DNA of 43,946 nt from an uncultured bacterium (GTDB lineage Bacteria > Verrucomicrobiota > Kiritimatiellia > RFP12 > UBA1067), in contig CACYNF010000010.1 in the NCBI GenBank assembly GCA_902775595.1, forward strand, positions 1-43,946, written 5' to 3'. A program made the position numbers and the translations under genes. Positions within the stretch are counted from its first letter, which is position 1. The number at the start of each line of letters is the position of its first letter. The notes under the pieces are model-generated. The model made no database searches. It was not told the DNA's origin and saw only the letters and a program-made list of their open reading frames with translations. Below are positions 10,787 to 29,330 of the stretch, in pieces.

Positions 10787-10812
10787 CGCCTCCGACGGAT
10801 CGGTCTTGGGGT

Positions 10813-11619
10813 TCAGACGATTTTTTGTTCGACGTCTTGGATGACTAGCCCTGCGAGGGCAAAGCCGAAGATCGCCGTCGTGTGCGCAATGGTGCCGTTT
10901 ATGCGGGCCTTTGACGAACACCACTCATGCGTGGCAAGCGAACTTTCCCCGACGCCGGGGTCCTTCGGGCAGACGCACTCCCCGAGGCCGCATCCTGCGC
11001 CCGCCGGGCCCAGGTTCTCGCGGCGCTCTGGACTCCACACGCATTTGAACTTTCGCGCCGGCATGCCGCCGGTCTTCTTGAACTTTGTGCGCAGCGCACG
11101 CGCGAGCCCGTCGCCTTCGACCTTGCGGAACTCGGTTGCGCGGATCTGGAACGGGTCCATCTTCAGCGCCGCGCCCATCGAGGCGAAGAGCGTTACCGTC
11201 GGAATCGAGAGCGCGTGTCGTATGAGCGCCGCCTTTTCGCGAAGCGAGTCGATGGCGTCGACCACGTAGTCGTATTCGTCCAGCGCGAATTCCCCGGCCG
11301 TCTCGGGCGAGTATATCTGCTGCCGCACGTCGAGCTCGACGAGGGGGTTGATCTCTTTCAGCCGTCTTGCGAGGACGTCGACCTTGACCTGTCCCGCGGT
11401 CTTCGTCGTCGCCATCAGTTGGCGGTTCACGTTCGTGATGCAGACCCGGTCGGAGTCCACGAGAAGCAGCTTTCCGATGCCGGACCTGACGAGCGACTCG
11501 GCACACCAGCTGCCGACGCCGCCGAGCCCGAAGACGGCAACCTTGGTGTGCGCGAGCGCGTCGAGGGTCTCCGTTCCGAGCATCAGCTCCGTACGCCTGA
11601 ATATGGCTGGATGTTTCAT
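10813..11619 (-). CDS. tcdA: tRNA threonylcarbamoyladenosine dehydratase TcdA (CsdL)
   Basis: An E1-like ThiF/MoeB-family ATPase that dehydrates tRNA t6A37 to cyclic ct6A. The 268-residue length equals E. coli TcdA. Visible are FRRTELMLG at the start, the nucleotide site GLGGVGS (about 33-39), and LLLVDSDRVCITNVNRQ. The C-terminal GGMPARKFKCVWSPE and SSKARINGTIAH segments fit the family. I chose ATG 11619 (MKHPAIF) because it lies 9 nt after the -10 and begins the family's N-terminus; the longer ORF upstream is not conserved in character. It is convergent with addB, 26 bp apart, and works downstream of tsaC in the same pathway. Confidence 0.9.
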   Translation of the reverse strand: MKHPAIFRRTELMLGTETLDALAHTKVAVFGLGGVGSWCAESLVRSGIGKLLLVDSDRVCITNVNRQLMATTKTAGQVKVDVLARRLKEINPLVELDVRQQIYSPETAGEFALDEYDYVVDAIDSLREKAALIRHALSIPTVTLFASMGAALKMDPFQIRATEFRKVEGDGLARALRTKFKKTGGMPARKFKCVWSPERRENLGPAGAGCGLGECVCPKDPGVGESSLATHEWCSSKARINGTIAHTTAIFGFALAGLVIQDVEQKIV

Positions 11620-11628
11620 TCGCGGCAA

Positions 11629-11637
11629 AGTATACCA
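11629..11637 (-). promoter_or_regulatory. Extended -10 promoter of tcdA, near-leaderless
   Basis: On the minus strand TTTTGGTATACT, then 9 nt, then ATG. The predicted start is 2-3 nt upstream of the AUG, so the mRNA would be practically leaderless. Confidence 0.65.
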
Positions 11638-11708
11638 AAATTCCGCGCGCGCGGATAACACAAAGGGCACATAGATTTCGTCCGCACCATAATCTCATTT
11701 TGCCGTGG

Positions 11709-11755
11709 TTGATCCCAGCGCGGCAGTTTCGCTATAATATGCCCAACGCCGTTGG
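11709..11755 (+). promoter_or_regulatory. Sigma70-type promoter with operator-like palindrome
   Basis: TTGATC (11709-11714), an 18 bp spacer and a perfect TATAAT (11733-11738). The perfect palindrome CCAACG-C-CGTTGG (11743-11755) covers the expected start site, as a repressor site would. The only reading frame downstream is short and runs into the 3' end of the opposite-strand gene. Confidence 0.5.
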
Positions 11756-11784
11756 AAATGAGGAAAGTGAAGGAAAACATCGAA

Positions 11785-12012
11785 ATGGGCGATGAAAACA
11801 GTAGTATCAATGGGGTGTCTCCCCAGTTGGTCCAGAAGTTGTTACCTGACAATCGGAAGCTCCCTCATGTATCGGTCGTGCAAACGCCGAAACAGCACTC
11901 GTTGTTCTTCCTTGCTTGCGCCACTGGCTTTAACAACCTGATTTGTGAATACGGCAAATTCTTCAGTGGACATCAAATCTTTGCATCCCGCAACACTCAA
12001 AGAACAAAGTGA
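11785..12012 (+). other. Possible small ORF or gene remnant behind the 11709 promoter
   Basis: An open frame of 75 codons starts MGDENSSINGVSPQLVQKLL, about 11 nt after AAGGA. From 11842 it overlaps the opposite-strand secreted-protein gene, where its sequence looks like a shadow. I do not recognise it. It may be the 5' stump of a gene cut off when the accessory genes arrived, or the promoter may only make an antisense RNA. Confidence 0.2.
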
Positions 12013-12633
12013 AAGCAATTGTTTGCGGTAACCTTCAACAAGGCAATTCTCATTAAAGACACGAATCTGTAATTCACACTTCTCGCCTAACTGTCGACGA
12101 AGCTCTTTCCTGCGCAGATTTTCAAGCTCCAGCTGCTGCCTGTGTTCAGAAGAAATTCGCTTTCCGTTTAACGAAACCATTATTGGCATAGGCATGACTG
12201 CAACCGCCAGATCTGAAGGAAAGTCAACTCTTGTAACACTACCGACATACTCAGCCAAAGAGAGACACGCCAATGCATTTGTCGAAAAATCAACTAAGGG
12301 CAATTGCGTATTAAGACTCCATACCCAAGACATCTTAAGCGCATCGATACCAACGCTATCATCCACAGCGTTGGTGGAAACATGCACAATTATCTTTTTC
12401 AAGCCGTCCAGCACCACAGACTCCACGGAACGAGAAATATCTGGTGTCGATGGCTCTTGCATTCTACGAAACAATTGTCGCACCTCATCGTCGCAAGGCA
12501 GAATACAAGCCCGCCCTGCCTCGTTTAGCTTAAAGACAGCCTTCGCCTCTTCCTCAGTCGGATAGGAGCAAACGCCAATCAGCGGCAATGCCAATGCCGC
12601 AAAAACGGTGGTGATCGTTGATACTTTTTTCAT
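11842..12633 (-). CDS. Exported protein of unknown function
   Basis: The 263-residue protein has a signal peptide (MKKVSTITTVFAALALPLIGVCSY, cleavage near 22-24). The mature part is mostly charged and helical, with a Lys/Arg/Glu-rich stretch about 165-185 (QQLELENLRRKELRRQLGEK) and four or five scattered cysteines. I recognise no domain. Codon use is clearly AT-richer than in the surrounding housekeeping genes. It starts 1 nt after the stop of the upstream 704-residue secreted protein, with AGGAG inside that gene's end, so the two are co-transcribed and probably act together. Confidence 0.7.
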   Translation of the reverse strand: MKKVSTITTVFAALALPLIGVCSYPTEEEAKAVFKLNEAGRACILPCDDEVRQLFRRMQEPSTPDISRSVESVVLDGLKKIIVHVSTNAVDDSVGIDALKMSWVWSLNTQLPLVDFSTNALACLSLAEYVGSVTRVDFPSDLAVAVMPMPIMVSLNGKRISSEHRQQLELENLRRKELRRQLGEKCELQIRVFNENCLVEGYRKQLLSLCSLSVAGCKDLMSTEEFAVFTNQVVKASGASKEEQRVLFRRLHDRYMRELPIVR

Positions 12634-12634
12634 A

Positions 12635-14749
12635 TCATGGACTCCTAGTTACTGTTGTTATGTCGTTTGTTCCTCGTGTCGCGGTATACTTGTACTTTTC
12701 TACAGACAAATCGCCATTTGGCGAGAATGTATACACCTGCGACTCTACGATGAATGGATGCAATGATCCAATGATATTGCCATTTTCTTTCACATACCAA
12801 TAATTGGTTATGTTATATTCAAAACCTCCTGCCGTCCAAGTGACAGGCATTCCCCCAAAATTAGCAGCGGCAAAATCACCCCCTGCATAATTGTCCGAAA
12901 TGGACATCCCTACCTCACTCCATGCCCCGGCATTTGCATCGTGCGGCAAAAGGCCACTAGCGTATGGCACGAAAAATCCCCAAATATTTGAAGCTGGGCA
13001 TTCACCCTCCTGCAGAAACAGGTGCATAAACGAAACATAATCTGGCATAAGCCGCAACTCCGTATGCAAGCCTACCGCCACATCGCCCGGGATCGGATAA
13101 CTGCCAGCCTGAGCAAGCCACTCACCAGACGTTGCGGCATGCCCTGAGATAGATTCGAGTCTAGTAGGTGCAACAACCTCCAGAGGGAAGATGAAATCAA
13201 CACCCGAAATCGACACGGTCGCAACGTCGTTAGTAGGCTCATTGGAGGCGCGATAGTCATAGGTCGAACAAACGGCGTTCGTACCCCCAACGCTCCATTG
13301 AATGCCATTAAGCGTTGGCATGGGGACAAACTTTGCAGATTCCTGAGGTCCGAATATGTGGCGAACCTTATTTGTCGGGAATGTGGCATCCGCCAACACC
13401 TCGATCTTGACAGAGGTAATGGATGTGGTATCGGATAGTAATCGCCCCGTCACATTTTCTGAAAAGGTGGCTATAGCTACAATATCTCCTTCGCTCGCAC
13501 TTGCCTTCAGCCCCTCGTATCCAATTTCGAATATATAGGTCTCACCAGCAGAAAGCAATATATTAGTTGGCAGAATATCGCCCGAAACAGTACCTATCTT
13601 GTCCCCATTGGCGAGCGATACAGTTAGCGTTCCACCATACTGCCCGCCTACGACTCGACCCGCGAGCGTTACTGCCGTAGAACGTTTTGACATCACGACA
13701 CCGGGTGCGTTCGTGTACGCATCTTCAAATATAACGACATCTTTAGAAAATGCAATCCTGTTAGCCACACCATTTTCATCGTCATCCTCATTCGCGCACG
13801 GGCAGTTGACATACAAACCTCCTGTTAAGGTATAACCTCCATAGAGCAGTGACACTGTAATATAGTGGGGTGAGCCGCAACATCTACAATCTTCTGAACA
13901 AACCCAGTAGAATCCGTTTGTGTTCGCAGTGGTTATAGTACAGCAGCCTCCAGAGACCGCCGTAACTATTGCTCCGACATCTGGGTTTGTGGTAATCTTG
14001 TAGAACTTACCCGGCGGAGTGCCGTCACGTAAATTTGAACCGTTTCGATGTAACGAGTTTATGCTTTCAACCATTGTGTGCGATGCTCCAAATTTAGTCT
14101 CCACGTCAGAGCCCACGCCATCTGCAATAGAATCGAAATGAAGGGGCTGACCCACGACAGCACGACTCGTCTCAATCACGTGGCCGCCCGACAGGTCGGT
14201 GCGCGAAACCACGGATGTAACCGCGCCGGAATCGGCGCGGAGTACATCGATTCCGAGGTCGGCGACAAGAACCGGCTCGCCGTCTGGCGGGCGTATTGAT
14301 TCGACTGCTCCGTCGGTCAGCCTGGATGCCTCGGAGCTTCGCTGCTCTTGATCCGCCGACTCCGCCGCGTCGTTGCCGACGCAGACAATAGGCGAGCCGT
14401 CGAGGGAGTACAGGAATACGCCGACCGCCTCGGGAAATTCGGAAAGCGGCACATTGACGCCTTCACCCTCTGAAAGCGTATCGCCGGCGGCGGACAGTAT
14501 CCTGTAGCCAAGCGGAGAACCACCGCCGCCTGAAACCGCGAACACTACATCCTCGCCTCCGTCTACCGCGAACAGAAGCCCGCCGCCCGTTCGCTTGCAG
14601 ACAGGGGTGGCTTCTCCGGCGAGCGCAACGACGGTGGGCGGCTCGACATCGGCGTCGACAACAAGAAATTCGAACGCGCTTGTGGCGAACGCAATGGCGA
14701 AGACGGCAAAAAACAACGTGAACGGATGTTTCCTCAATGGCTGCGACAT
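12635..14749 (-). CDS. Large secreted protein of unknown function, compositionally mosaic
   Basis: The 704-residue protein begins with a signal peptide (about 1-25). Residues 1-190 are rich in Gly, Val and Asp and encoded by GC-rich DNA like the host; from about residue 195 onward the DNA is much AT-richer. A cysteine cluster lies near 270-325 (GGCCTITT, VCSEDCRCCGS, NCPCANED), followed by an acidic DDDENG stretch that could bind calcium. The remainder looks like beta-sandwich repeats of an adhesin or surface protein. GGGAGG precedes ATG. It shares an operon with the 263-residue exported protein. Function unknown. Confidence 0.75.
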   Translation of the reverse strand: MSQPLRKHPFTLFFAVFAIAFATSAFEFLVVDADVEPPTVVALAGEATPVCKRTGGGLLFAVDGGEDVVFAVSGGGGSPLGYRILSAAGDTLSEGEGVNVPLSEFPEAVGVFLYSLDGSPIVCVGNDAAESADQEQRSSEASRLTDGAVESIRPPDGEPVLVADLGIDVLRADSGAVTSVVSRTDLSGGHVIETSRAVVGQPLHFDSIADGVGSDVETKFGASHTMVESINSLHRNGSNLRDGTPPGKFYKITTNPDVGAIVTAVSGGCCTITTANTNGFYWVCSEDCRCCGSPHYITVSLLYGGYTLTGGLYVNCPCANEDDDENGVANRIAFSKDVVIFEDAYTNAPGVVMSKRSTAVTLAGRVVGGQYGGTLTVSLANGDKIGTVSGDILPTNILLSAGETYIFEIGYEGLKASASEGDIVAIATFSENVTGRLLSDTTSITSVKIEVLADATFPTNKVRHIFGPQESAKFVPMPTLNGIQWSVGGTNAVCSTYDYRASNEPTNDVATVSISGVDFIFPLEVVAPTRLESISGHAATSGEWLAQAGSYPIPGDVAVGLHTELRLMPDYVSFMHLFLQEGECPASNIWGFFVPYASGLLPHDANAGAWSEVGMSISDNYAGGDFAAANFGGMPVTWTAGGFEYNITNYWYVKENGNIIGSLHPFIVESQVYTFSPNGDLSVEKYKYTATRGTNDITTVTRSP

Positions 14750-19018: not shown

Positions 19019-22000
19019 ATGATGTACAGGAAGGTACCAGTCTTTTGCGGGTGCGCGGCCCTGATGTTGGCCGCGTCCGCGCCGATTTCGGCCGTCGCTG
19101 ACGACAAGCCGGCCGCCGCAGCCGAAGCTCCCGTCGAGGAGACAGACCCCGCGCTCGAGTTCGAGATCCGCTACGTCGAGGCGCTCATCGAATACGGCTA
19201 CCCCGACTTCGCCGAGCCCGTCATCGAGGCGACGAAGAAGAAATGGCCCGAGGCCGAGACGAAGTTCTTCGCGATAGAGATCCGCGGCATGCTCTCCTTA
19301 GGCAAGTTCGAGGAGGCCGAGAAGAAGATCGCGGCTCTCCCCGACCGCACCGGCCCGAAATACTGGGCGGCGCGCCTCGAGGTCGCCAACAACCTCTTCT
19401 TCCGCGGCAAGAAGGCCGAGTGCTCGAAGATATACGACGAGTTCTTCAAGGCGTTCCCCAAGCCCACGAAGGAGATCCGCGAGTTCTACATGCAGGCGTG
19501 CTACGCCTGGGGCCAGATTCTCGTCGGCGACAAGCGCTTCGACGAGGCGGTGAAGGTCTACGCCGGGCTTCTTTCCCAAATCAACAAGAGGAAGAGCGAA
19601 GACGACGCGAACACGTGGTGCAACGTCGCGTGCGAGACGGCCGAGATGTACCTGAAGCTCGCGACCGACACTCCGAACGTAAAGAACCGCGGCCAGTATA
19701 TCGAACCCGCGAAGAAGATCGTCGACCAGCTCCTCTGGGAGCAGGACCGTCCCGTCTACTTCGGCCGCGCCATCGCGATGAAGGCCAACATCGAGCTCCT
19801 GAAGGGCGATGTCGCGAAGGCCCAGGAGACGATCAACGAGTACATGCCGCAGCTCGAGCAGCTCCACCAGTCGATCGTCGAGTTCGACCCCGAGGGCAAG
19901 GAGGGCCTGAGGAAGTTCTCGCCGATGCCGCTCTGCCGCTTCATGCTCGCGAAGATGCTGTGGGACGAGGCGCAGGCAGAGTACAAGAAGCCGAAGCGCG
20001 ACGACGAGCGCGTCAAGTCGCTGCTCTTCGGCGACAGGACGCCTGCCGGCAAGCGCAACGGCCTCGGCGCGTACAACCATGCGCTCAACGTCTTCATCCA
20101 GTATCCCGAGTCCACATGGGCCGCCGACGCCGGCGAGATGTCGGAGAAGATCGGCGAATTCGCGCGCAAGAACTACAACGCCAACATCCAGACGAGGATC
20201 AAGCCCGAACAGCTGGCCGAGGTCCGCAAGATGCAGTTCCGCGCACCGGCCGAGAAGATGGCCGAGGACAAGGTCGAGGAGGCGATCAAGGAGTATCTCG
20301 AGGTTCTCGCCCGCTATCCCGAGGTCAAGGAGTCGATCTACGCGGTCGAAGAGGTGATTCGCGGTCTTCTCGGCCTCATCCAGGCCAACAAGGAAGATCC
20401 CAAGGCCGCCGACTGGCGCATCGACGCCGACGCGATCGAGGGCTATCTCGCCGAGCGCTTCGCGGGGCTCAAGGACCGCGAGCTGATGACGATGGCCGGC
20501 GAGTCCGTCCTGCGTCTCGCTGCGTTCGAGAAGCAGCTCGGCCAGCTCGCCCGCGCCGACCGGCTCTACGGCGAGTTCCTGAAGAACTACCGCCGCCATG
20601 TCAGCGCCCCGAACACGGCTTCGCAGCTTCTCGGCGAGGCGATGCGCGCCGAACGCTGGGGTGACGCGATAAAGTTCTGCGAGATAATCCAGAAATACTA
20701 CACCAACTCCATCTACTACGCCGCCTCCTACTCCCAGGAGTCCTACTGCCATTCGAAGCTTGGCGAACAGGCCGAGGCGATAGCCATGATGAAGAAGTAC
20801 GTCGAGGTCGAGAAGGACGGCATCGCCCGCGAGCAGGCCAGGATGGCGCTCGCCCAGATGTACCAGAAGGAGGGTTTCGACATGGTCTCCGGCGCTGAGA
20901 CGAACGAGACGCCCGAGGCCGTCGCCGCCGCGCTCAAGGCCGGCTCCGCCCAGATCGTCCGCGGCATCCAGCAGTTCCGCGAGTTCGCGAAGGTCGCCGA
21001 CAAGGCGCTTGCCGACCCGTCGCTCACGAAGGCCGACAAGGCGAAGTACAATCTCCTCAGGGAGCAGGCCCTCTTCCTCGTCGGCGACTGCTGGCGCCGC
21101 ATGACGAAGCCCGAGGCCAAGCTCAACATGTTCCGCGAGAACGCCGCGAAGAGCTACGAAGACTATCTCTCCGCCTATCCCGAGGGCCGCTACTCCACCA
21201 ACGCCTATGTCCGCCTCGGCACGATCTACACCGCGCTCGGCGATACCGAAAAGTCGCGCAATGCGCTCGACCGCCTCTCAAAGGCGTTCCCCGACTCGCT
21301 TGAGGCCAAGAACGCCAAGCCCCAGCTCGCGAAGTCGCTCATCGAGATGGGCATGAAGAAGGAAGGCACCGAGATCTACGCCGAGATGCTCCGCACGGAC
21401 GGCGCCTACACCGCGTGGCAGTTCGTGAACGCCGGCGAGGCGCTTATCGATGCGAAGAGCTGGGGGCTTGCGAACGAGGCGTTCGAGAAGGCCATCCAGA
21501 AGGCAGGCACCAACCAGCTCCTGACCGTTGCCAGGGCGCGTCTCGGAGAGGCGAAGTCGCTTTACAAGCAGAAGGCCTACGCCCAGGCGCGCGACGCGCT
21601 CGACCAGTTCCTCGACGACGAGAAGATGTCGAAGATGTCGATCGCCGTCGACGCCCATCAGCTCATGATCGAGGTCGCCTCCGAGCAGGGCCGCACCGAA
21701 AAGGACTCGGAGCTCCGTTCCAAGCACTTCGGCAAGGCGATCGGCTCCGTCAAGAAGCTGCGCAACTACTGGAAGAACAAGCCCCAGTGGGAGCAGGATA
21801 TGGTCGACCTGATGTCGGCCGACGTCAAGCTCCGCCAGATGGCGGCGGAAGAGGCGATGGACCTCAAGGAGGAGGCCGAGAAGTCCGGCCGCACGGCGGC
21901 TTCGACGCTCCTTGGCTTCCTGCAGTCGCACTGCGTCGACGAGAACCACCCGGCCGACAAGATGACCCCGGGCGAGCTCGCCAATCTTGAGCGCTGCTAC

Positions 22001-22267
22001 GCGACGCTGGTTCCGCTCTGCGCCAAGCTCGGCAGCGACTTCGCCGACAATGTGCTGAAGTTCGGCCAGGAGTATCTCGACCTCTTCCCGAACGGCAAGG
22101 CGCGCACCGATGTGCAGAACGCGATGAACCTCGCGAAGACCGCTGGCGGCAAGGTGGCCGCGCCGACGGCCAGCGACCAGCCCGACGAGGCGGGCGACTC
22201 GCCCGCTCCTGCGGCCGAAGCCGCCGAGCCCGCCGCCGAAGCCGCCGACACCGATTCTGAAAACTGA
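19019..22267 (+). CDS. Exported tetratricopeptide-repeat protein, 1082 residues
   Basis: Signal peptide about 1-27 (ends PISAVA before DDK), no lipobox. The rest is a long helical solenoid with TPR-like units: paired helices with the A/Y/L pattern recur, for example YWAARLEVANNLFFRGKKAE, EAVKVYAGLL, RLGTIYTALGDTEKSRNALD and KSLYKQKAYAQARDALDQF. The C-terminus is a low-complexity Ala/Glu/Pro tail. It would be a periplasmic scaffold. It is the first gene of the block that continues through exbB, exbD, exbD, the toroid protein and lolCD, all in the same direction with short spacers. No enzymatic motif is seen; YbgF/CpoB-like scaffolding is an analogy. Confidence 0.8.
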   Translation: MMYRKVPVFCGCAALMLAASAPISAVADDKPAAAAEAPVEETDPALEFEIRYVEALIEYGYPDFAEPVIEATKKKWPEAETKFFAIEIRGMLSLGKFEEAEKKIAALPDRTGPKYWAARLEVANNLFFRGKKAECSKIYDEFFKAFPKPTKEIREFYMQACYAWGQILVGDKRFDEAVKVYAGLLSQINKRKSEDDANTWCNVACETAEMYLKLATDTPNVKNRGQYIEPAKKIVDQLLWEQDRPVYFGRAIAMKANIELLKGDVAKAQETINEYMPQLEQLHQSIVEFDPEGKEGLRKFSPMPLCRFMLAKMLWDEAQAEYKKPKRDDERVKSLLFGDRTPAGKRNGLGAYNHALNVFIQYPESTWAADAGEMSEKIGEFARKNYNANIQTRIKPEQLAEVRKMQFRAPAEKMAEDKVEEAIKEYLEVLARYPEVKESIYAVEEVIRGLLGLIQANKEDPKAADWRIDADAIEGYLAERFAGLKDRELMTMAGESVLRLAAFEKQLGQLARADRLYGEFLKNYRRHVSAPNTASQLLGEAMRAERWGDAIKFCEIIQKYYTNSIYYAASYSQESYCHSKLGEQAEAIAMMKKYVEVEKDGIAREQARMALAQMYQKEGFDMVSGAETNETPEAVAAALKAGSAQIVRGIQQFREFAKVADKALADPSLTKADKAKYNLLREQALFLVGDCWRRMTKPEAKLNMFRENAAKSYEDYLSAYPEGRYSTNAYVRLGTIYTALGDTEKSRNALDRLSKAFPDSLEAKNAKPQLAKSLIEMGMKKEGTEIYAEMLRTDGAYTAWQFVNAGEALIDAKSWGLANEAFEKAIQKAGTNQLLTVARARLGEAKSLYKQKAYAQARDALDQFLDDEKMSKMSIAVDAHQLMIEVASEQGRTEKDSELRSKHFGKAIGSVKKLRNYWKNKPQWEQDMVDLMSADVKLRQMAAEEAMDLKEEAEKSGRTAASTLLGFLQSHCVDENHPADKMTPGELANLERCYATLVPLCAKLGSDFADNVLKFGQEYLDLFPNGKARTDVQNAMNLAKTAGGKVAAPTASDQPDEAGDSPAPAAEAAEPAAEAADTDSEN

Positions 22268-22283
22268 TCTTAAGGAGAACCAA

Positions 22284-23054
22284 ATGAAGAGACTGATGAT
22301 CCTGTTAGCCGTCACCGCAGCGACTTCGCCGCTGTGGGCGATTCAAGGCACGATCCGCACGGCGACCGACTCCAAGAAGGGCGACATAAAGTGGCAGCCC
22401 CGCTCGAAGTCCTACGCCGTCTCGTTCAAGAAGGGGAATACCATGGTAAGCGCCGAGTACCCCCTCGCGGACGTCGAGGAGCTCGACATCGAAAAGCCCG
22501 CCGGCTACGACAAGGCCGTCGAGAACGTCAGGCGCGGCAACGGCGCCGCGGCGATCGGCGTTCTCACAAAGGTCGTGCAGGACTACAAGATGCTCAAGTG
22601 GGACAAGCCGGCGGGCCGCTATCTCGTCGAGGCCTACATCTCCGCGAACAACGCGCAGAAGGCGCTTGAGGTGGCCGAGGGCGTCATCAAGGACGACAAG
22701 TCCGCGGAATGGAAGGGCGAGCTCGCCCCGGCCTACTGGCAGGCGCTTCTCAAGCTCGGCAAGACCCAGAAGCTCGAAGGGCTTGTCAAGAAGGCGGCGA
22801 TCAGCGGCGACAGGGCGGCGAGCGCAAACGCCCTCGTGATGCGCGGCGACATGATTCTCGCCTCCGAGGGGACCTCGCCGGAGGGCTGCCGCAAGGCGCT
22901 CACAGACGCATATCTCCGGGTCGCGCTCATGTACGCCGACGAGCCGTGCCGCGAGGCGCGTGTCGACGCGATGCAGCGCGCGGCCGACTGCTTCGACAAG
23001 CTCGGCCAGGCCGCCCGTGCGGAGCAGCTTCGCTCTCAGGCCCGCAAACTCTAA
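22284..23054 (+). CDS. Exported TPR-like protein, 256 residues
   Basis: Signal peptide MKRLMILLAVTAATSPLWA (1-19). An N-terminal beta-rich part (IQGTIRTATD, SKSYAVSFKKGN, VSAEYPLADVEELDIEKP) is followed from about residue 75 by helix pairs of TPR type (YDKAVENVRRGNGAAAIGVL, QKALEVAEGVIKDD, AYLRVALMYAD). It follows the 1082-residue TPR protein by 16 bp with AAGGAG, and precedes exbB across a 57 bp spacer made largely of an octamer repeat. I recognise no named family. Co-location suggests a periplasmic partner of the motor complex. Confidence 0.75.
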   Translation: MKRLMILLAVTAATSPLWAIQGTIRTATDSKKGDIKWQPRSKSYAVSFKKGNTMVSAEYPLADVEELDIEKPAGYDKAVENVRRGNGAAAIGVLTKVVQDYKMLKWDKPAGRYLVEAYISANNAQKALEVAEGVIKDDKSAEWKGELAPAYWQALLKLGKTQKLEGLVKKAAISGDRAASANALVMRGDMILASEGTSPEGCRKALTDAYLRVALMYADEPCREARVDAMQRAADCFDKLGQAARAEQLRSQARKL

Positions 23055-23098
23055 CCACACAACCACATAACCACCAAACCACCTTAACCAACCACCCA
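23052..23098 (+). repeat. Octanucleotide tandem repeat between TPR gene and exbB
   Basis: Degenerate NAACCACN units: TAACCACA, CAACCACA, TAACCACC, AAACCACC, then a broken unit and a last copy. It begins in the stop codon of the upstream gene and ends just before the AAGGA of exbB. Confidence 0.75.
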
Positions 23099-23111
23099 AG
23101 GAAACAAACAA

Positions 23112-23924
23112 ATGAGCAAGGCAAGAAAATCACTGATGGCTTTTATGGTTCTCGTCGGAACAACTGTCGCGCCGATGGCGGCGCTTCAGTCGATGGGGCA
23201 GGAACTGACCGATGAAAACGGAAATGCGGTCGAGCAGAGCACAGTCAAGTCGAGCGGCAAGAAGGGTGGCGGCTTCGTCGACATCGTCTTCGGTTCGGGC
23301 GTCGTCGGTATGCTGCTGTGGTTCGCCCTCTTTGGCGACGGCGCTCTCGCAATATACTTCTCGGTTGACTGCTTCATTCTCATCAAGCCCGAGAAGCTCA
23401 TGCCCGCGCGTCTCATCGACCAGGTGCAGAAGGCGATGAGCGAAGGCGACATCGTGGCGGCGATGGAGGCCTGCCAGAACACCCCGTCCGTCATGTCCAA
23501 CATCCTCACCGCGGCGTTCCAGCACGTCGAGGAGGGCTTCGATGTCATTCAGGAGGCGGTCAATGCGGCTTCCGACCTCGAGCAGGAGAAGCTTATGCAG
23601 CGCCTGACCTGGATTTCGGTGTGCTCCAACCTCGGCCCGTCGCTCGGCCTTCTCGGTACGGTGCAGGGAATGATTCTGACGTTCCAGGCCCTCGCGCAGG
23701 GCGGCGCAGGCGACGCGGCCGCGCTCGCGAGCTCGATCGGCCAGGCGCTTTGGACGACGGCCGGCGGCCTTATCGTGTCGATCCCGAGCATCACCGTCTT
23801 CTACTCTCTCCGTAACAACGCGAACCGCCTCATTCTCCGCATGACAGCCGTCACGATGGAGTTCCTGAACGGCCTCAGGAACGTTGAGGTCGCCCCTGAA
23901 GAGGGTGCGGCGGAGATGGCGTAA
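23112..23924 (+). CDS. exbB: ExbB/TolQ/MotA-family proton channel subunit
   Basis: The 270-residue inner-membrane protein starts with a cleavable signal or extra helix (about 1-25), then a glycine-rich segment and the first membrane helix (about 55-80, VVGMLLWFALFGDGALAIYF). The long cytoplasmic loop runs about 85-165. The last two helices carry the family signatures GPSLGLLGTVQGMILTF and SIGQALWTTAGGLIVSIPS. It forms the pentameric stator that, with ExbD, turns proton flow into motion. An N-terminal export sequence is an extra compared with E. coli ExbB but is common in Planctomycetes and Verrucomicrobia relatives. AAGGA precedes ATG at 10 nt. Confidence 0.9.
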   Translation: MSKARKSLMAFMVLVGTTVAPMAALQSMGQELTDENGNAVEQSTVKSSGKKGGGFVDIVFGSGVVGMLLWFALFGDGALAIYFSVDCFILIKPEKLMPARLIDQVQKAMSEGDIVAAMEACQNTPSVMSNILTAAFQHVEEGFDVIQEAVNAASDLEQEKLMQRLTWISVCSNLGPSLGLLGTVQGMILTFQALAQGGAGDAAALASSIGQALWTTAGGLIVSIPSITVFYSLRNNANRLILRMTAVTMEFLNGLRNVEVAPEEGAAEMA

Positions 23925-23949
23925 GGAAACTATCTGACACAGAAATACC

Positions 23950-24423
23950 ATGGGCAGAAAGCCACAGGAAAACCCACAGCTCGACATGACGCCGATGATC
24001 GACGTCGTGTTCGAACTCATCATCTTCTTCGTCGTCACGCTCGTCGAGGCGCAGAAGAAGGACGAGTCGATCGAGCTGGAGGACGGCAAGCACGGCATTG
24101 TGCTTGTGCCGGAGGAGCTGCCGCCGACGCACATGCAGATCGACATCGGCCTTCACCAGAAGGGGCCGAAGAAGGGCAAGCCGAGGATCTCCATGGGCGA
24201 CATCGAAATAACGCCGGCGGAAATCTCCAAACGCGTAAGGGATCGTCTCAAGAAGTACAAGGACTTCCCGGTCATGGTCCGCGCAGACTTCGCCGTTCCG
24301 CACAAGGCGGTCGCGCAGGTCATGAACGCATGCACCGAGGCCGGCGTCTGGAAGATCTCGTTCGTCGCAGTCCAGGAGGACAAGACGCATGCGCGCAAGC
24401 GGCTCGGAAAGCTGAAGAAGTAG
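23950..24423 (+). CDS. exbD: ExbD/TolR-family protein, copy 1
   Basis: The 157-residue protein has a short cytoplasmic N-terminus, one membrane helix (MIDVVFELIIFFVVTLV, about 16-32) with the proton-carrying aspartate D18, and a periplasmic domain. The periplasmic part contains a Lys/Gly-rich insertion (HQKGPKKGKPRIS) and ends Lys/Arg-rich. The first 30 residues match the next ExbD in 29 positions and the DNA is also nearly identical; beyond that the two diverge completely. No good Shine-Dalgarno lies directly upstream. Confidence 0.9.
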   Translation: MGRKPQENPQLDMTPMIDVVFELIIFFVVTLVEAQKKDESIELEDGKHGIVLVPEELPPTHMQIDIGLHQKGPKKGKPRISMGDIEITPAEISKRVRDRLKKYKDFPVMVRADFAVPHKAVAQVMNACTEAGVWKISFVAVQEDKTHARKRLGKLKK

Positions 24424-24436
24424 CGGAGGCATCGAA

Positions 24437-24850
24437 ATGGCGAGAAAACCACAGGAAAATCCGCAGCTCGACATGACGCCGATGATCGACGTCGTGTTCG
24501 AGCTCATCATCTTCTTCGTCGTCACGATCAAGCAGGAGGACGTGTTCTCCACGCTTAACTGCAACCGCCCCGCTCCGGCGACGGGCCAGGCTACCGAGAA
24601 GGACGACATCACCGTCAACATCGAGATCGGCCGCCGCTACGACGGCAGCCCGCAGGGCGTCATCCTATATAACAAGCGCGAGGTCAAGCGCACCGAGCTT
24701 GACGCCGCTCTCCGCGAGATCGCGAAGGTCAAGAAGACGACGCCGATCATCGTGAAGTGCGCGGAGGACAGTCCTCACAAGGCGCTTGTCGACGTCCTGG
24801 ACATCTGCTACCACAACGAGCTTTTCAGCGTCAGCGTCTTTACGCTTTAA
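24437..24850 (+). CDS. exbD: ExbD/TolR-family protein, copy 2
   Basis: 137 residues; the same N-terminal anchor as copy 1 with D18, then a different periplasmic domain (EDVFSTLNCNRPAPATG, later IIVKCAEDSPHKALVDVLD, which is the ExbD fold motif). GGAGG lies 7 nt before ATG. Two ExbDs with one ExbB suggest a heteromeric rod inside the ExbB ring. Confidence 0.9.
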   Translation: MARKPQENPQLDMTPMIDVVFELIIFFVVTIKQEDVFSTLNCNRPAPATGQATEKDDITVNIEIGRRYDGSPQGVILYNKREVKRTELDAALREIAKVKKTTPIIVKCAEDSPHKALVDVLDICYHNELFSVSVFTL

Positions 24851-24880
24851 ACATGTCTACACAAGGGGGAAAAGGGAAAA

Positions 24881-26590
24881 ATGAGCGAAGAAATAATAGA
24901 AGAGGAAGTCGGCGAGGTTATCGACCTTGACGAAATCGCGAAGAAATACGAGGAGAGAGGTTTCTTCAAGCGCCTCGGCGACATGTTCAAGGGCCTCAGC
25001 AAGCCCCATGACACCCGCGACTACAAGCTTGCGAGAATAGAGCTGCAGCGCCTCGCCGCCCCGCTCACGGCAATCGTCGTTCCGATCGTCTTCGGCGTGG
25101 TGCTGTGCGTCGTCACGATGATATCGAGCCAGAAGAAGGACTCCATCGTCGTCGACATCGCCCAGATAGAGGATGAACCCGAGGAGCTCAAGGAAGAGGA
25201 GGAGATCCCTCCGGACGACATCGAGCCCCCGCCGATGGAGGAGGTCGAGATCACCGTCGACACGCCGAACCCGAATCCCGTCTCGAACGTGACGCCAGTC
25301 CCCTCGCCGCCGTCTTCACAGGTCTCCGTGAAGCCCGCCCCGATGGATTCGGTCGCCATCGTCAAGTCGCCTGTCACGATGAAGTCGATGACGGGATCCA
25401 GAACCCCCGGCTCGATCGGCGCGGCGACGCGCGGCGGCGCGGGATACGGCGATGCCAACACCGAGGCGGCGGTCATGAAGGTCCTCTGGTGGCTCAAGGC
25501 CCACCAGAACACCGACGGCAGCTGGGGCGGCCCCAACAAAATCGCAAATACGGCGCTCGCGATTCTCACCTATCTCGCGCACGGCGAATATCCGGGAAGC
25601 CCTTCGCCCTACAAGCACGACTTCGGCCCTACGGTCCAGCAGGCGATCGACTACCTGATCGGCAACCTTACCACGGGCCCGAACAACCAGCCGTACTTCC
25701 AGGGGTCCGACGGCAACGAGTACAGCTTCCTTATAGGCACATACGCGCTCTGCGAAGCATATGGCATGACGAAGAACCCGAACTGCAAGGAGGCGGCGCA
25801 CCAGTGCCTCTACCGTATCGTCGAGAACCAGTCGTCTACGGGCGGCTGGGACTACAAGCTGAACAAGAACTCGACGCGCGACGACCTCTCCTTCGCGGGA
25901 TGGGCGATTCAGGCGCTCAAGGCCGGCAAGATGGCGGGGCTTCACCCCGAAGGCCTCCAGACCGCTATCAACAAGGCGATCAACTGCCTCAAGAGGCGCA
26001 GCTATTCGAAGTCCTCGGGCTTCACCTACACGCCAACCAACGGCAACAACGGCGGAGCGACGGGGCTTGCGGGAGTCGGCACCCTTGCGATGCAGCTTCT
26101 TGGCCGCGGCTCGGAGCCGGAGGCGATGAATGCGCTTGAGGTCATGCGCGACTGGAAGCCGTCGTTCGACCCAGACGGGCTCTCGGCCAAGAAGCCCGGC
26201 GGAAGCCCCCAGTACTACTGCTACTACGCGACGCAGTGCAAGTACCAGGCGGGCATGAAGGCGGGCGCCATGAAAAACGACGAGGTGACCTGGCAGCAGT
26301 GGAACCTCGCCATGAAGAAGCTCTACCCGTCGTCGATCATCGATCTTCCCGAGAAGGTTCCGGATCACACGGGCAAGGAGCACAAGCAGGGCTACTTCGA
26401 GAACAAGGATGCCCACTCGTCGCGTCCCTATATGGATACGTGCCTCGCGGCGCTCCAGCTGATGGTCTACTACCGCTACCTCCCGACGACATCGGTCAAG
26501 GCAGGTGCGGATGAAGCGGCCGAAGGCGGCGAAGACGCCGCACAGGCGATAGACAAGTCCAAGGACGTCGCCGTCACGGTTGACATCTAA
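24881..26590 (+). CDS. TonB-like membrane protein with squalene-cyclase-type alpha/alpha toroid
   Basis: The 569-residue protein has a charged cytoplasmic N-terminus (1-58), one membrane helix (about 59-81, LAAPLTAIVVPIVFGVVLCV), an acidic and proline-rich linker (about 95-155, with EEEEIPPDDIEPPPMEE) as in TonB, and then an alpha/alpha toroid of prenyltransferase/squalene-cyclase repeats (about 190-545). QW-like motifs include LKAHQNTDGSWGG and VENQSSTGGWDY; RDDLSFAGWAIQALKAG is another repeat. I see neither a DxDD cyclase motif nor a TonB C-terminal domain. Located right after exbB-exbD-exbD, it probably takes the TonB position in the motor, with the toroid in the periplasm. Its binding partner is unknown. 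Confidence 0.8.
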   Translation: MSEEIIEEEVGEVIDLDEIAKKYEERGFFKRLGDMFKGLSKPHDTRDYKLARIELQRLAAPLTAIVVPIVFGVVLCVVTMISSQKKDSIVVDIAQIEDEPEELKEEEEIPPDDIEPPPMEEVEITVDTPNPNPVSNVTPVPSPPSSQVSVKPAPMDSVAIVKSPVTMKSMTGSRTPGSIGAATRGGAGYGDANTEAAVMKVLWWLKAHQNTDGSWGGPNKIANTALAILTYLAHGEYPGSPSPYKHDFGPTVQQAIDYLIGNLTTGPNNQPYFQGSDGNEYSFLIGTYALCEAYGMTKNPNCKEAAHQCLYRIVENQSSTGGWDYKLNKNSTRDDLSFAGWAIQALKAGKMAGLHPEGLQTAINKAINCLKRRSYSKSSGFTYTPTNGNNGGATGLAGVGTLAMQLLGRGSEPEAMNALEVMRDWKPSFDPDGLSAKKPGGSPQYYCYYATQCKYQAGMKAGAMKNDEVTWQQWNLAMKKLYPSSIIDLPEKVPDHTGKEHKQGYFENKDAHSSRPYMDTCLAALQLMVYYRYLPTTSVKAGADEAAEGGEDAAQAIDKSKDVAVTVDI

Positions 26591-27844
26591 GTGAACTTTT
26601 CTGTTTTCCTGGCCACTAAGTACCTTAAGCCGAAGCGCTCGGTCGCGTCGGTCATTACCTGCGTCTCGATTCTTGGCGTCATGCTCGGCGTCGCCGCCGT
26701 CATTATCGTCAGAAGCGTGATGACGGGTTTCGGCGACGAGTGGGAGAAGAAGATCCTCAGCTTTAAGCCCCACATCTCGATTCTGCCCTCGCGCGGCAAC
26801 GTTGTCGCGGAAGAGGACAGGATCGCCGCGGCGGTGCGCGCCATTCCCGGCGTCTCCTGCGTCACGCCCGAGGTCGATACCCGCATCCTCCTTTCCCACG
26901 GCAACCGCGTTCTCGCGCCGGTTCTTCTCGGCGTGGACGCGGATGACTTCACGGCGGCGTACAAGATCGGCGCTCCCCGCGCGGGCACGTTCGATCTCGA
27001 CGGCGACTCCATAGTGCTTGGGGTCCACGCCGCGCGCCAGCTCGGGTGCTGGGTCGGCGACGAGGTTACGGTCTATTCGCCCAAGACGCTCGCCTCGCAG
27101 GACGAGGTGTATCTCCCGATAAAGTGGAAGGTTGTCGGCATATTCTCGTGCGGACAGTACGACTACGATTCCGGTTATGCAGTCGCGTCGCTCGCGAATG
27201 TGCGTGATTTGATGGGGCTTGAGAAGGGCGTGTTCGCGATTCACGTCAAGACAGACTGCCCTACCGATCCCGCGAAGTTCCGCGCCCTCGTCGAAACTGT
27301 CGTGGAAACTGCCAACTCCTCCACTCCCCCACTCCTCCACTCCCCCACTCCTGTTCGCGCCCTCACCTGGCGCGAGGCCGACCGCGAGCTCTTCTCTGCG
27401 CTCGCCGTCGAAAAGAACATGACGGCCGTTCTTCTCCTGCTGATTTCCCTTGTCGCGCTCTTCTGCGTGATGAACACGCTTCTCGTCCTTACCGTCCAGA
27501 AGACGCCGGAAATCGGGCTTCTGAAGGCGCTCGGCTTCTCGCGCCGCGAGATAATGGGCGTTTTCATGACACACGGCCTCGTCCAGTGCACGGCGGGTAT
27601 TGTCCTCGGGCTTCTTGCGAGCTGGGCCGTCCTCTCGAATCTCCAGCGCATCGTCGAATGGCTCGGTTCGATAGGCCTGCCGGTCTTCCCGGAGTCGGTC
27701 TACGGCCTTGCGGAGATACCGCACCGCGTGATATTCTCCGACATCGTCTGGACTGTTGCGTTCGTGTACGCGTTCGGATGGCTCGCGTCGTTCATCCCCG
27801 CGCTCATTGCCTCCACGAAAGACCCTGTCAAGGCGTTGGAGTAG
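26591..27844 (+). CDS. LolC/LolE-type ABC transporter permease
   Basis: The 417-residue permease of the FtsX/MacB fold has an N-terminal helix after LATKYLKPKRS, a large periplasmic domain (about 45-270) and three C-terminal helices (VLLLLISLVALFCVMNTLLVL, VQCTAGIVLGLLASW, IVWTVAFVYAFGWLASFIP), ending STKDPVKALE as LolC/E proteins do. It would extract lipoproteins from the inner membrane for LolA. Start GTG directly follows the TAA of the toroid gene, so the two are translated as neighbours. The periplasmic domain holds a segment SSTPPLLHSPTP encoded by a (CYCCACTC) repeat. Confidence 0.88.
   Translation: MNFSVFLATKYLKPKRSVASVITCVSILGVMLGVAAVIIVRSVMTGFGDEWEKKILSFKPHISILPSRGNVVAEEDRIAAAVRAIPGVSCVTPEVDTRILLSHGNRVLAPVLLGVDADDFTAAYKIGAPRAGTFDLDGDSIVLGVHAARQLGCWVGDEVTVYSPKTLASQDEVYLPIKWKVVGIFSCGQYDYDSGYAVASLANVRDLMGLEKGVFAIHVKTDCPTDPAKFRALVETVVETANSSTPPLLHSPTPVRALTWREADRELFSALAVEKNMTAVLLLLISLVALFCVMNTLLVLTVQKTPEIGLLKALGFSRREIMGVFMTHGLVQCTAGIVLGLLASWAVLSNLQRIVEWLGSIGLPVFPESVYGLAEIPHRVIFSDIVWTVAFVYAFGWLASFIPALIASTKDPVKALE
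27312..27350 (+). repeat. Octanucleotide tandem repeat inside the LolC/E gene
   Basis: CTCCACTC and CCCCACTC alternate, four units at 27319-27350, preceded by a related CCAACTC. The unit is not a multiple of three, so unit changes would shift the frame. Confidence 0.8.
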
Positions 27845-27901
27845 TTTGAAGTCTAACGGGCAAAGCTAAAAGTGAGTCAGTTGCAGAACATCATATTTAA
27901 C

Positions 27902-27957
27902 CATGTAGAACATGTAGATCATGTAGAAATTCTACATGTTTCTACACGTTCTACACG
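27902..27957. repeat. Nonamer repeats forming a 27 bp stem hairpin
   Basis: Three direct copies of CATGTAGAW (27902-27928) face three copies of TTCTACAYG (27930-27957). The two halves are complementary with one bulge and a few mismatches. No T-run follows. It fills the 157 bp gap between the Lol permease and lolD genes. Confidence 0.8.
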
Positions 27958-28001
27958 GCTAATAATTCGTTGAAAGGCGGAGTAGTATTGGAAAGCTAAA
28001 A

Positions 28002-28643
28002 ATGGCTGTCTTGAGCACATTAGACGTGACGAAGAGATTCAAGATCCCGGGGCAGAAGCCCATCGAGGTCCTGAAGGGTGTCAACTTCTCGGTCCGCGAA
28101 GGCGAGAAGGTCGCGATCATCGGGCGTTCTGGTGCCGGCAAGTCGACGCTTCTCAACATCCTCGGGGGGCTTCTCAAGCCCACCTCCGGCGTCGTCACGC
28201 GCCCGAAGAACTTCGGCTTCGTCTTCCAGTCCTACCACTTGATGCCTGAGCTTACGGTCCTCGAGAACGTCCTGCTGCCGACGATGTCCCGCCGCGCCGC
28301 GGCGCTTGCGACGCGGGCGGCGAGCGAGGCGCGGGCGCGTGATCTTCTTGAGAAGGTCGGCCTCGGCAAGCGGCTCGACCATCTTCCCGCCGAGCTTTCG
28401 GGCGGCGAGCGCCAGCGCGTCGCGCTCGCGCGTGCGCTCGTCACCGATCCTTCGCTCGTTCTCGCCGACGAACCGACCGGCAACCTCGACGCAATGACCG
28501 GTGCGGACATTCTGCACATCCTCTCCGAGCTTTCAGGCGACGGCAAGACGGCGCTCGTGATGGTGACCCACTCGCCGGCGGCTGCGGCCGTGTGCGACCG
28601 CACGCTCACGCTCGAAGACGGCGTTCTCGTGAGGAAGGAATAG
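28002..28643 (+). CDS. lolD: LolD-type ABC transporter ATPase
   Basis: The 213-residue ATPase has Walker A GRSGAGKST (about 46-54), the Q-loop in FVFQSYHLMPELT, the signature LSGGERQR (about 139-146), Walker B LVLADEPTG and the switch histidine in MVTHS. The MacB/LolD/FtsE subfamily is clear from YHLMPELTVLENV. It would power the adjacent permease in lipoprotein release. A single permease gene implies a homodimeric LolC/E. The gap before it is filled by an inverted nonamer repeat. Confidence 0.9.
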   Translation: MAVLSTLDVTKRFKIPGQKPIEVLKGVNFSVREGEKVAIIGRSGAGKSTLLNILGGLLKPTSGVVTRPKNFGFVFQSYHLMPELTVLENVLLPTMSRRAAALATRAASEARARDLLEKVGLGKRLDHLPAELSGGERQRVALARALVTDPSLVLADEPTGNLDAMTGADILHILSELSGDGKTALVMVTHSPAAAAVCDRTLTLEDGVLVRKE

Positions 28644-28646
28644 CGA

Positions 28647-29330
28647 GTGGCTCCACGCGCCGAAATCCTCATAGCCGAAGACGAACCGTCGGCCCGCCGT
28701 GGCTTCCGCGCGCTTTTCGAGAGCGAGGGATACGCGGTGCGAACTGCCCGCGACGGCGAGGAGGCGGTCGCGAAGTTCATTGAGCGCCGTCCCGACGCGG
28801 TTCTTCTCGACGTGATGATGCCGAAGATGAACGGAATCGCCGCGTGCGCCGAGATGCGCAAGGCCGACCTGCTGGTGCCGATACTCTTTTTCACCGCCAT
28901 GCCGTCCGACGTGGGTGCTGTCCGCGCGCTCGGCCTGGGCGCGGACGACTACATCGACAAGGCGAAGTCGCCCGAGGAGCTTCTCGCCCGCGTTGCCGCG
29001 GTGCTGCGGCGCGCCGCAGCCGCCGCGAAGCCGCGCGCTGATGCGCTCGGCCTTGGCGGGGTGACCGTCGATTTCGCCACGATGACGGCGTCCGGCGATG
29101 GCGTCTCGGCCGAGCTCACTAAGTCGGAGGCGCTTTTTCTGCGGCTTCTCGCGTCGGAGCGTGGCCGCTGCTTCTCGTTCGACGAGATCTTCGCGGCACT
29201 GCGCGGGGAGGGGTACATTGGCGACGACAACGCCGTCAGGTGCATCGCGAAGCGGCTCAAGGCGAAGCTCGGCCGTGCTGGCGAGCTTATCTCCAACACC
29301 CGTGGCATAGGCTACAAGCTCGTCAGATAG
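28647..29330 (+). CDS. OmpR-type response regulator without adjacent kinase
   Basis: The 227-residue protein has a receiver domain (1-118) with acidic pocket E11/D12 and phospho-acceptor D55 in LLDVMMPKMNG, and a winged-helix DNA-binding domain (about 130-227; DEIFAALRGEGYIGDDNAVRCIAKRLKAKLG, RGIGYKLVR). After DDYIDK the usual KPF is replaced by AKS. The start is GTG at 28647 with AGGAAGGA ahead; it sits 3 bp after the lolD stop, so it belongs to the Lol/ExbBD transcript. No histidine kinase is next to it. A role in envelope-stress control is inferred from position only. Confidence 0.88.
   Translation: MAPRAEILIAEDEPSARRGFRALFESEGYAVRTARDGEEAVAKFIERRPDAVLLDVMMPKMNGIAACAEMRKADLLVPILFFTAMPSDVGAVRALGLGADDYIDKAKSPEELLARVAAVLRRAAAAAKPRADALGLGGVTVDFATMTASGDGVSAELTKSEALFLRLLASERGRCFSFDEIFAALRGEGYIGDDNAVRCIAKRLKAKLGRAGELISNTRGIGYKLVR

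Follow-up and report, generated by a model that had tools for sequence, protein, structure and literature searches.

The 43,946-nucleotide window analysed here is contig C10 (CACYNF010000010.1) of an 86%-complete genome (G000) of an uncultured Kiritimatiellia bacterium, and it contains a gene block which probably encodes a dedicated motor driven by the proton-motive force (pmf). The motor would consist of an ExbB ring and an axle made of two different ExbDs, and it would drive a transducer that resembles TonB or TolA but is tipped with an alpha/alpha toroid. The nearest named relatives of the window are metagenome-assembled genomes (MAGs) from rumen and gut that are labelled Kiritimatiellae or Lentisphaerae.

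A total of nine co-directional genes were found at 19019-29330, encoding the tetratricopeptide repeat (TPR) proteins TPR1 and TPR2, ExbB, ExbD1, ExbD2, the toroid protein, LolC/E, LolD and a response regulator, with intergenic gaps of 0-57 bases among the first seven (TPR1 through LolC/E). The original prediction, made from the sequence alone, had described the first eight of these as two exported TPR proteins, ExbB, two ExbDs, a toroid protein, LolC/E and LolD. This description was confirmed: the eight reading frames are open, run in one direction and match the predicted positions exactly or very closely. The Pfam and NCBIfam scan of the window's proteins returned MotA_ExbB, two ExbD and TPR family matches (Table 1). 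The lolCE (2e-71) and LolD (2e-64) matches are full-length, yet they lie below the NCBI curated cut-offs. A PADLOC defence-system search with the six core proteins gave no match.

The toroid protein shows the layout of a transducer, namely one N-terminal membrane helix, a disordered proline-rich linker and a globular C-terminal domain in the predicted topology. AlphaFold modelling (32 relatives) places a helix at residues 46-82, comprising the end of the cytoplasmic stub and the membrane helix, followed by a disordered linker (83-185), the toroid and a disordered tail. The toroid domain spans residues of about 190-535, with twelve helices within 192-528 and predicted local distance difference test (pLDDT) values mostly of 83-97 that are lower at about 380-440. 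On these models, we take the stub-helix-linker-toroid pattern to be real. Sequence matches to squalene cyclases are weak (SQHop_cyclase_C 7e-4, below cut-off). Structural alignment of the toroid head to squalene-hopene cyclase (PDBID: 1sqc) with VIA-align gave a Z of 24.8 over 286 aligned residues, with a root-mean-square deviation of 3.0. The fold neighbours found by Foldseek and VIA-align were squalene-hopene cyclase, drimenyl synthases, GH76 mannanases and sugar epimerases. Neither Pfam nor NCBIfam found a TonB or TolA C-terminal domain in the protein, and no VWA domain was matched by Pfam, so that the predicted replacement of the TonB C-terminal domain by a toroid is borne out. The segment IVVDIAQI, located about seven residues after the membrane helix, is a candidate ExbD-binding D-box by analogy with the segments described for other transducers (PMC12905483, PMC12204202). 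The strand-like pattern of the tail DVAVTVDI could, more speculatively, form a second docking peptide.

The helices of the toroid form two alternating rings, and most positions kept in at least 90% of the relatives belong to just one of them (26 of 87 positions against 11 of 93 in the other; p 0.003); the residues kept at this level include H234, E236, Y281, Y288, E292, D335, W341, Q344, Y383, Y445, Y448, Y449 and Q452. This one-ring conservation and the many aromatic and polar residues suggest a conserved interior or face, and hence a ligand or a partner. The same residues, and a fold common to cyclases, mannanases and epimerases, are also what would be expected if the toroid were a membrane-anchored enzyme, or a receptor for a glycan-like or isoprenoid-like ligand, which would detect or act on a molecule in the periplasm and open or close the ExbB-ExbD channel without exerting force. 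The loss of the classical docking pair in the window's clade and the occurrence of some toroids without a motor, both described below, point in the same direction. We nevertheless consider this explanation unlikely. The DXDD motif is absent from the window's toroid protein, in which the nearest sequence is TRDD (332-335), and only D335 of the 334-335 pair is widely kept across the phylum, so that an acid pair as in class II cyclases is not supported and one as in GH76 enzymes appears unlikely. Features typical of transducers are also seen, namely a D-box-like segment and a long linker, together with a Ser-x3-His (SxxxH) motif in deep relatives. Squalene-cyclase activity was rejected as a reading, as the fold agrees but the DXDD motif is missing.

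The motor proteins have retained the characteristic residues of ExbB and ExbD. The equivalents of E. coli ExbB T148, T181 and P190 (T183, T216 and P225 in the window) are invariant, those of T148 and T181 in 60 aligned rows, and the equivalent of ExbD Asp25 is likewise invariant in 60 aligned rows (numbered after E. coli ExbB and ExbD, for ExbB in accord with PMC12215075). Throughout the phylum, ExbD1 and ExbD2 fall into old and distinct groups (Shimodaira-Hasegawa-like approximate likelihood ratio test support of 98 and 93), which suggests an axle built of two different ExbDs. The toroid-linked ExbBs lie on one side of a branch with support of 98/94. In profile scores from 155 genomes, one ExbB type reaches at least 305 bits and all other full-length ExbBs at most 174, in a comparison of full-length proteins (the ExbB of genome G170 is split over two frames). 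The ExbB nearest to that of the toroid motor in the tree is the one serving a transducer with a vWA domain in the same genome, although we claim no kinship of the two motors because the branches are long.

The toroid-family profile matched 148 of 289 Verrucomicrobiota genomes, which are draft MAGs with contig ends. Forty loci around such matches, taken from other families, from other classes and from the window's order, were scanned with per-gene models. The motor was present in 25 of the 40, and in all 25 a TPR gene precedes ExbB, two ExbDs and the toroid, in this order. Conservation of both order and sequence goes far beyond chance, and the order extends well past close relatives; a failure to do so had been named as a refutation. 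Of the PVC bacteria for which the machine had been suggested, the survey covered Verrucomicrobiota. By our reading of the profile scores, the matching ExbB type occurs in 54 of 155 genomes. A toroid gene was found in 48 of these 54 as against 15 of the 101 without the motor (Fisher p 4e-20, for genomes that are not phylogenetically independent), and coordinate comparison places the toroid directly behind the motor in at least 32 of the 54. In five loci (L163, L160, L161, L190 and L168), two toroid genes follow one motor, as though both heads were driven by it. We also considered vWA as an alternative head on this motor. None was noticed at 20 loci of this ExbB type, mostly chosen for having no toroid seen adjacent and inspected without a Pfam scan of every downstream gene; the downstream genes recognised there were housekeeping genes (mutL and others). 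Outside the phylum, a Planctomyces plasmid encodes a protein with distant similarity to the toroid (24.5% identity, 56% cover), and no ExbB is among the genes listed for the 9 kb viewed there.

The residues by which the transducer would dock to the motor are most readily seen in deep relatives, in which the toroid membrane helix reads GPxxSxxxH. This contains the Ser-x3-His that is part of the SHLS motif of TonB and TolA (PMC12905483). In the E. coli cryo-electron microscopy structure, TonB Ser16 and His20 contact ExbB Ser34 and Trp38 (PMC12215075). The ExbB column aligned with Ser34 contains serine in all 13 loci with SxxxH and in the single SxxxN locus, whereas the remaining 45 loci, in which the helix has no histidine, carry Gly, Leu, Phe or Ala at this column. 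Alanine or glycine occupies the helix serine position in 44 of these 45. It had been expected that the toroid helix should enter the ExbB ring; this is the wrong test because the helices of TonB and TolA bind outside it (PMC12215075, PMC12905483), and deep toroids bear the same outside-docking motif.

With these features, the toroid protein would sit beside the ExbB ring through its single membrane helix, and its IVVDIAQI segment (89-96) may touch the ExbD pair just past the helix. The Glu/Pro linker of about 100 residues would span the peptidoglycan, and proton flow might alternately tighten and release it, by which the toroid would exert a pull on a partner in the periplasm or the outer membrane. 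The co-encoded exported proteins TPR1 and TPR2 would be the most likely partners, with a ligand in the conserved interior of the toroid as the alternative.

Several observations weigh against a pulling transducer of this kind. The window's own toroid protein lacks the Ser/His pair (A64 and P68 in these places), and its ExbB has Gly77 instead of Ser34, so that docking in the window does not follow the textbook mode. Trp38 is also not conserved among the toroid-linked ExbBs. The helix motif and the ExbB site both changed once, on the same branch of the tree and apparently in a single event; such a co-change provides no statistical proof of contact, and covariation as proof was dropped since only one independent change exists. 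Five genomes (G126, G150, G153, G158 and G172) have a motor with no toroid adjacent or none detected, while members of genus g62 in family f38 (L183, L184 and L185) carry tandem membrane-anchored toroids and no motor of this ExbB type. Finally, the data single out no partner for the toroid head. The f38/g62 toroids have no SxxxH and are possibly toroids freed from a motor.

A more ambitious form of the pulling-transducer reading is that the locus represents an undescribed class of pmf-driven trans-envelope machine, old in Verrucomicrobiota, in which an obligate ExbD1/ExbD2 pair moves a toroid that holds either a specific ligand or TPR1-TPR2. The contact would have been rewired in the window's clade from SxxxH/Ser34 to AxxxP/Gly, possibly insulating the motor from SxxxH-type transducers of the same cell. 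We regard this as plausible but lean slightly against it as a whole. The Ton and vWA transducers of the window's genome, and a third putative transducer at locus L114, have all retained SxxxH, and it is for this reason that we tentatively propose that the rewired contact keeps the toroid motor private. The original prediction of an undescribed machine stands insofar as no report of a toroid head was found and the toroid has its own ExbB, ExbD1 and ExbD2; it is weakened by the same plan being known for vWA transducers.

The partner genes that accompany the motor across the phylum encode TPR proteins. The orthologues of TPR1 and TPR2 have signal-peptide-like N-termini with no evident lipobox. 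The model of TPR2 (mean pLDDT 91.4) consists of a small five-strand beta domain and TPR-like helices, and Foldseek matches it to TPR proteins in the PDB. TPR1 gives a match, below cut-off, to the CpoB/YbgF model, which could be taken to mean that the toroid motor replaces Tol-Pal in outer-membrane constriction, with either a lipoprotein resembling Pal or the TPR proteins as the target of the toroid. The TolB N-terminal domain was not found in the 86%-complete genome, which has one OmpA/Pal-like domain, and this would fit such a role. However, TolB_N occurs in only 7 of 155 Verrucomicrobiota genomes regardless of the toroid motor, so that its absence is uninformative, and a complementary distribution of the two systems was rejected as evidence on the same ground. 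The block also contains no Pal gene. Overall, we find a replacement of Tol-Pal quite improbable.

The Lol genes are the neighbours for which the predicted link did not hold. LolC/E abuts the toroid gene with a gap of 0, and within the window's family the toroid is often followed by LolC/E-LolD (e.g. at L045, L063, L089, L151 and L152), an arrangement that might suggest that the motor and the two Lol proteins jointly release or sort lipoproteins. The pair is confined to that family; at motor loci of other families, the next gene is often mutL (about ten class-level loci) or an unrelated gene. In addition, the window's LolC/E is probably a housekeeping protein since it is the only clear LolC/E of the genome, and Lol itself is ATP-driven. 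A coupling to lipoprotein export is therefore very improbable. An OmpR-type response regulator (28647-29330) begins 3 bases after LolD and accompanies the block in none but the closest relatives.

Table 1. Annotated genes and protein segments of the toroid motor locus and its Lol neighbours (window coordinates).
Feature	Coordinates	Strand	Basis
TPR1, exported TPR protein of ~1080 amino acids	19019..22267	+	Family scan; orthologue upstream of motor across phylum
TPR2, exported, 256 amino acids, five-strand beta domain then TPR-like helices	22284..23054	+	AlphaFold, Foldseek, order conservation
ExbB-type ring subunit, distinct orthologous group	23112..23924	+	Pfam MotA_ExbB 4e-25; alignment; own branch 98/94
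Codon of ExbB Gly77, which aligns with E. coli ExbB Ser34 (TonB contact)	23340..23342	+	Alignment
ExbD1, E. coli Asp25 equivalent kept (D18)	23950..24423	+	Pfam ExbD 9e-21; alignment; tree group
ExbD2, E. coli Asp25 equivalent kept (D18)	24437..24850	+	Pfam ExbD 7e-21; alignment; tree group
Putative toroid transducer, 569 amino acids	24881..26590	+	Open reading frame, alignment, AlphaFold, structural alignment
Toroid protein, predicted cytoplasmic stub, residues 1-59	24881..25057	+	Alignment: conserved F29, R31, M35, G38, E47-Y48-K49, Q56, R57
Toroid protein, predicted single membrane helix, residues 60-82	25058..25126	+	AlphaFold and alignment; A64, P68 at SHLS Ser/His places
Toroid protein, Glu/Pro-rich disordered linker, residues 83-185	25127..25435	+	pLDDT < 50 over 83-185
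IVVDIAQI strand-like segment, residues 89-96, candidate ExbD-binding D-box / motor box	25145..25168	+	Position and pattern kept in alignment
Alpha/alpha toroid head, residues 190-535	25448..26485	+	AlphaFold; Z 24.8 to 1sqc
Toroid protein C-terminal tail DVAVTVDI, residues 562-569, after disordered stretch	26564..26587	+	Loose pattern, 60/77 relatives
LolC/E permease, abuts toroid gene, outside conserved machine	26591..27844	+	Family scan, locus comparison
LolD ATPase, lineage-specific neighbour	28002..28643	+	Family scan, locus comparison

The window's genome encodes at least two transducer systems that are not of the TonB type. A vWA-headed transducer with SxxxH is encoded on the minus strand of contig C3 (L115:1937-3553), adjoining ExbB, one ExbD and a TPR gene. 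On contig C18 (L114:5610-8336, about 10109-12835), a 908-residue protein with the TonB-like helix LSVAAHVAFF (SxxxH) follows its own ExbB and ExbD; it has no Pfam match, is followed by a bacterial alpha-2-macroglobulin and is possibly another transducer type. The genome also contains a second toroid transducer on contig C54 (L118), 74% identical to that of the window and located among unrelated genes with no motor gene alongside, as if several transducers share one motor. A toroid gene of the same kind occurs in the near relative L040 (7989-9644), where the flanks include Maf, QueC and a GH92-like gene.

A true TonB C-terminal domain elsewhere that serves this ExbB and ExbD had been named as a finding that would refute the proposed machine. 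Such a domain was found on contig C63, beside its own ExbB and ExbD, and it thus does not obviously serve the toroid motor, although cross-talk is possible. An apparently exported toroid protein (L116:3718-4779; SQHop_cyclase_C 1e-6) is encoded directly upstream of this canonical ExbB-ExbD-TonB set. The common motor family and the presence of two plug-domain receptors in the genome leave room for the toroid motor being an ordinary Ton variant that energises TonB-dependent receptors. This genome, however, already has a TonB with its own motor for that task, the toroid is without known TonB-box binding, and the partner genes across the phylum encode TPR proteins and no receptors, all of which make a Ton variant highly unlikely.

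To our knowledge, the transducers of ExbB/ExbD-type motors end in a TonB or TolA domain or, according to a 2025 report, in a vWA domain. That a toroid head with a motor of its own is conserved in many families of a phylum nearly without detectable TolB means that a major proton-powered envelope function of these gut and environmental bacteria is probably undescribed. The system makes it testable what an ExbB/ExbD motor with two different ExbDs pulls on and how transducers of the same cell stay private to their motors. Nature has here exchanged Ser/His for Ala/Pro together with Ser for Gly in ExbB, and this offers a ready test of how TonB and ExbB touch.

The toroid head shares its fold with squalene-hopene cyclases (best Z 24.8, 1sqc). 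It differs from them in being a single toroid of about 350 residues on a membrane-tethered linker and in having no DXDD. The fold is likewise shared with GH76 mannanases and sugar epimerases; the DD pair of the toroid is not kept phylum-wide, as judged from the alignment of its relatives. With TonB-ExbB-ExbD and TolA-TolQ-TolR, the toroid system shares the motor residues, a one-helix transducer, a proline-rich linker, a strand-like segment after the helix and, in deep relatives, the docking motif, which is replaced in the window's clade. Unlike these systems, it has no TonB or TolA C-terminal domain, and it has two ExbDs and exported TPR partners.

AglQ and AglS of Myxococcus are both TolR-like. 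The Agl-Glt and Agl-Nfs systems, in which contact between AglR and GltG or NfsG drives a trans-envelope machine (PMC3858216), are functional analogues in that one TolQ-like and two TolR-like proteins serve such a machine. No shared periplasmic components were identified, and the Agl transducer is not a toroid.

The closest known counterparts are the vWA-headed transducers described by Williams-Jones et al. in 2025 from PVC (Planctomycetes-Verrucomicrobia-Chlamydiae) bacteria; these proteins bear SHLS as well as a motor box, and their operons contain TPR, TolQ and two TolR genes (PMC12204202). Both systems have the same operon plan (a TPR gene, ExbB/TolQ, two different ExbD/TolR proteins and the transducer) and the same layout of membrane helix, disordered linker and non-TonB globular domain, and SxxxH is common to the vWA family and the deep toroid relatives. 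The novelty of the toroid motor is reduced by this report. Its main text makes no mention of a toroid or of squalene, and no published toroid head was found in the open literature, a search outside which lay most subscription papers and all preprints. The window differs in its alpha/alpha toroid head, its two TPR genes and its separate ExbB group, and its genome bears both systems, with the vWA transducer on a different motor. In the toroid form, a plan that was already recognised has thus acquired a new head and an ExbB group of its own.

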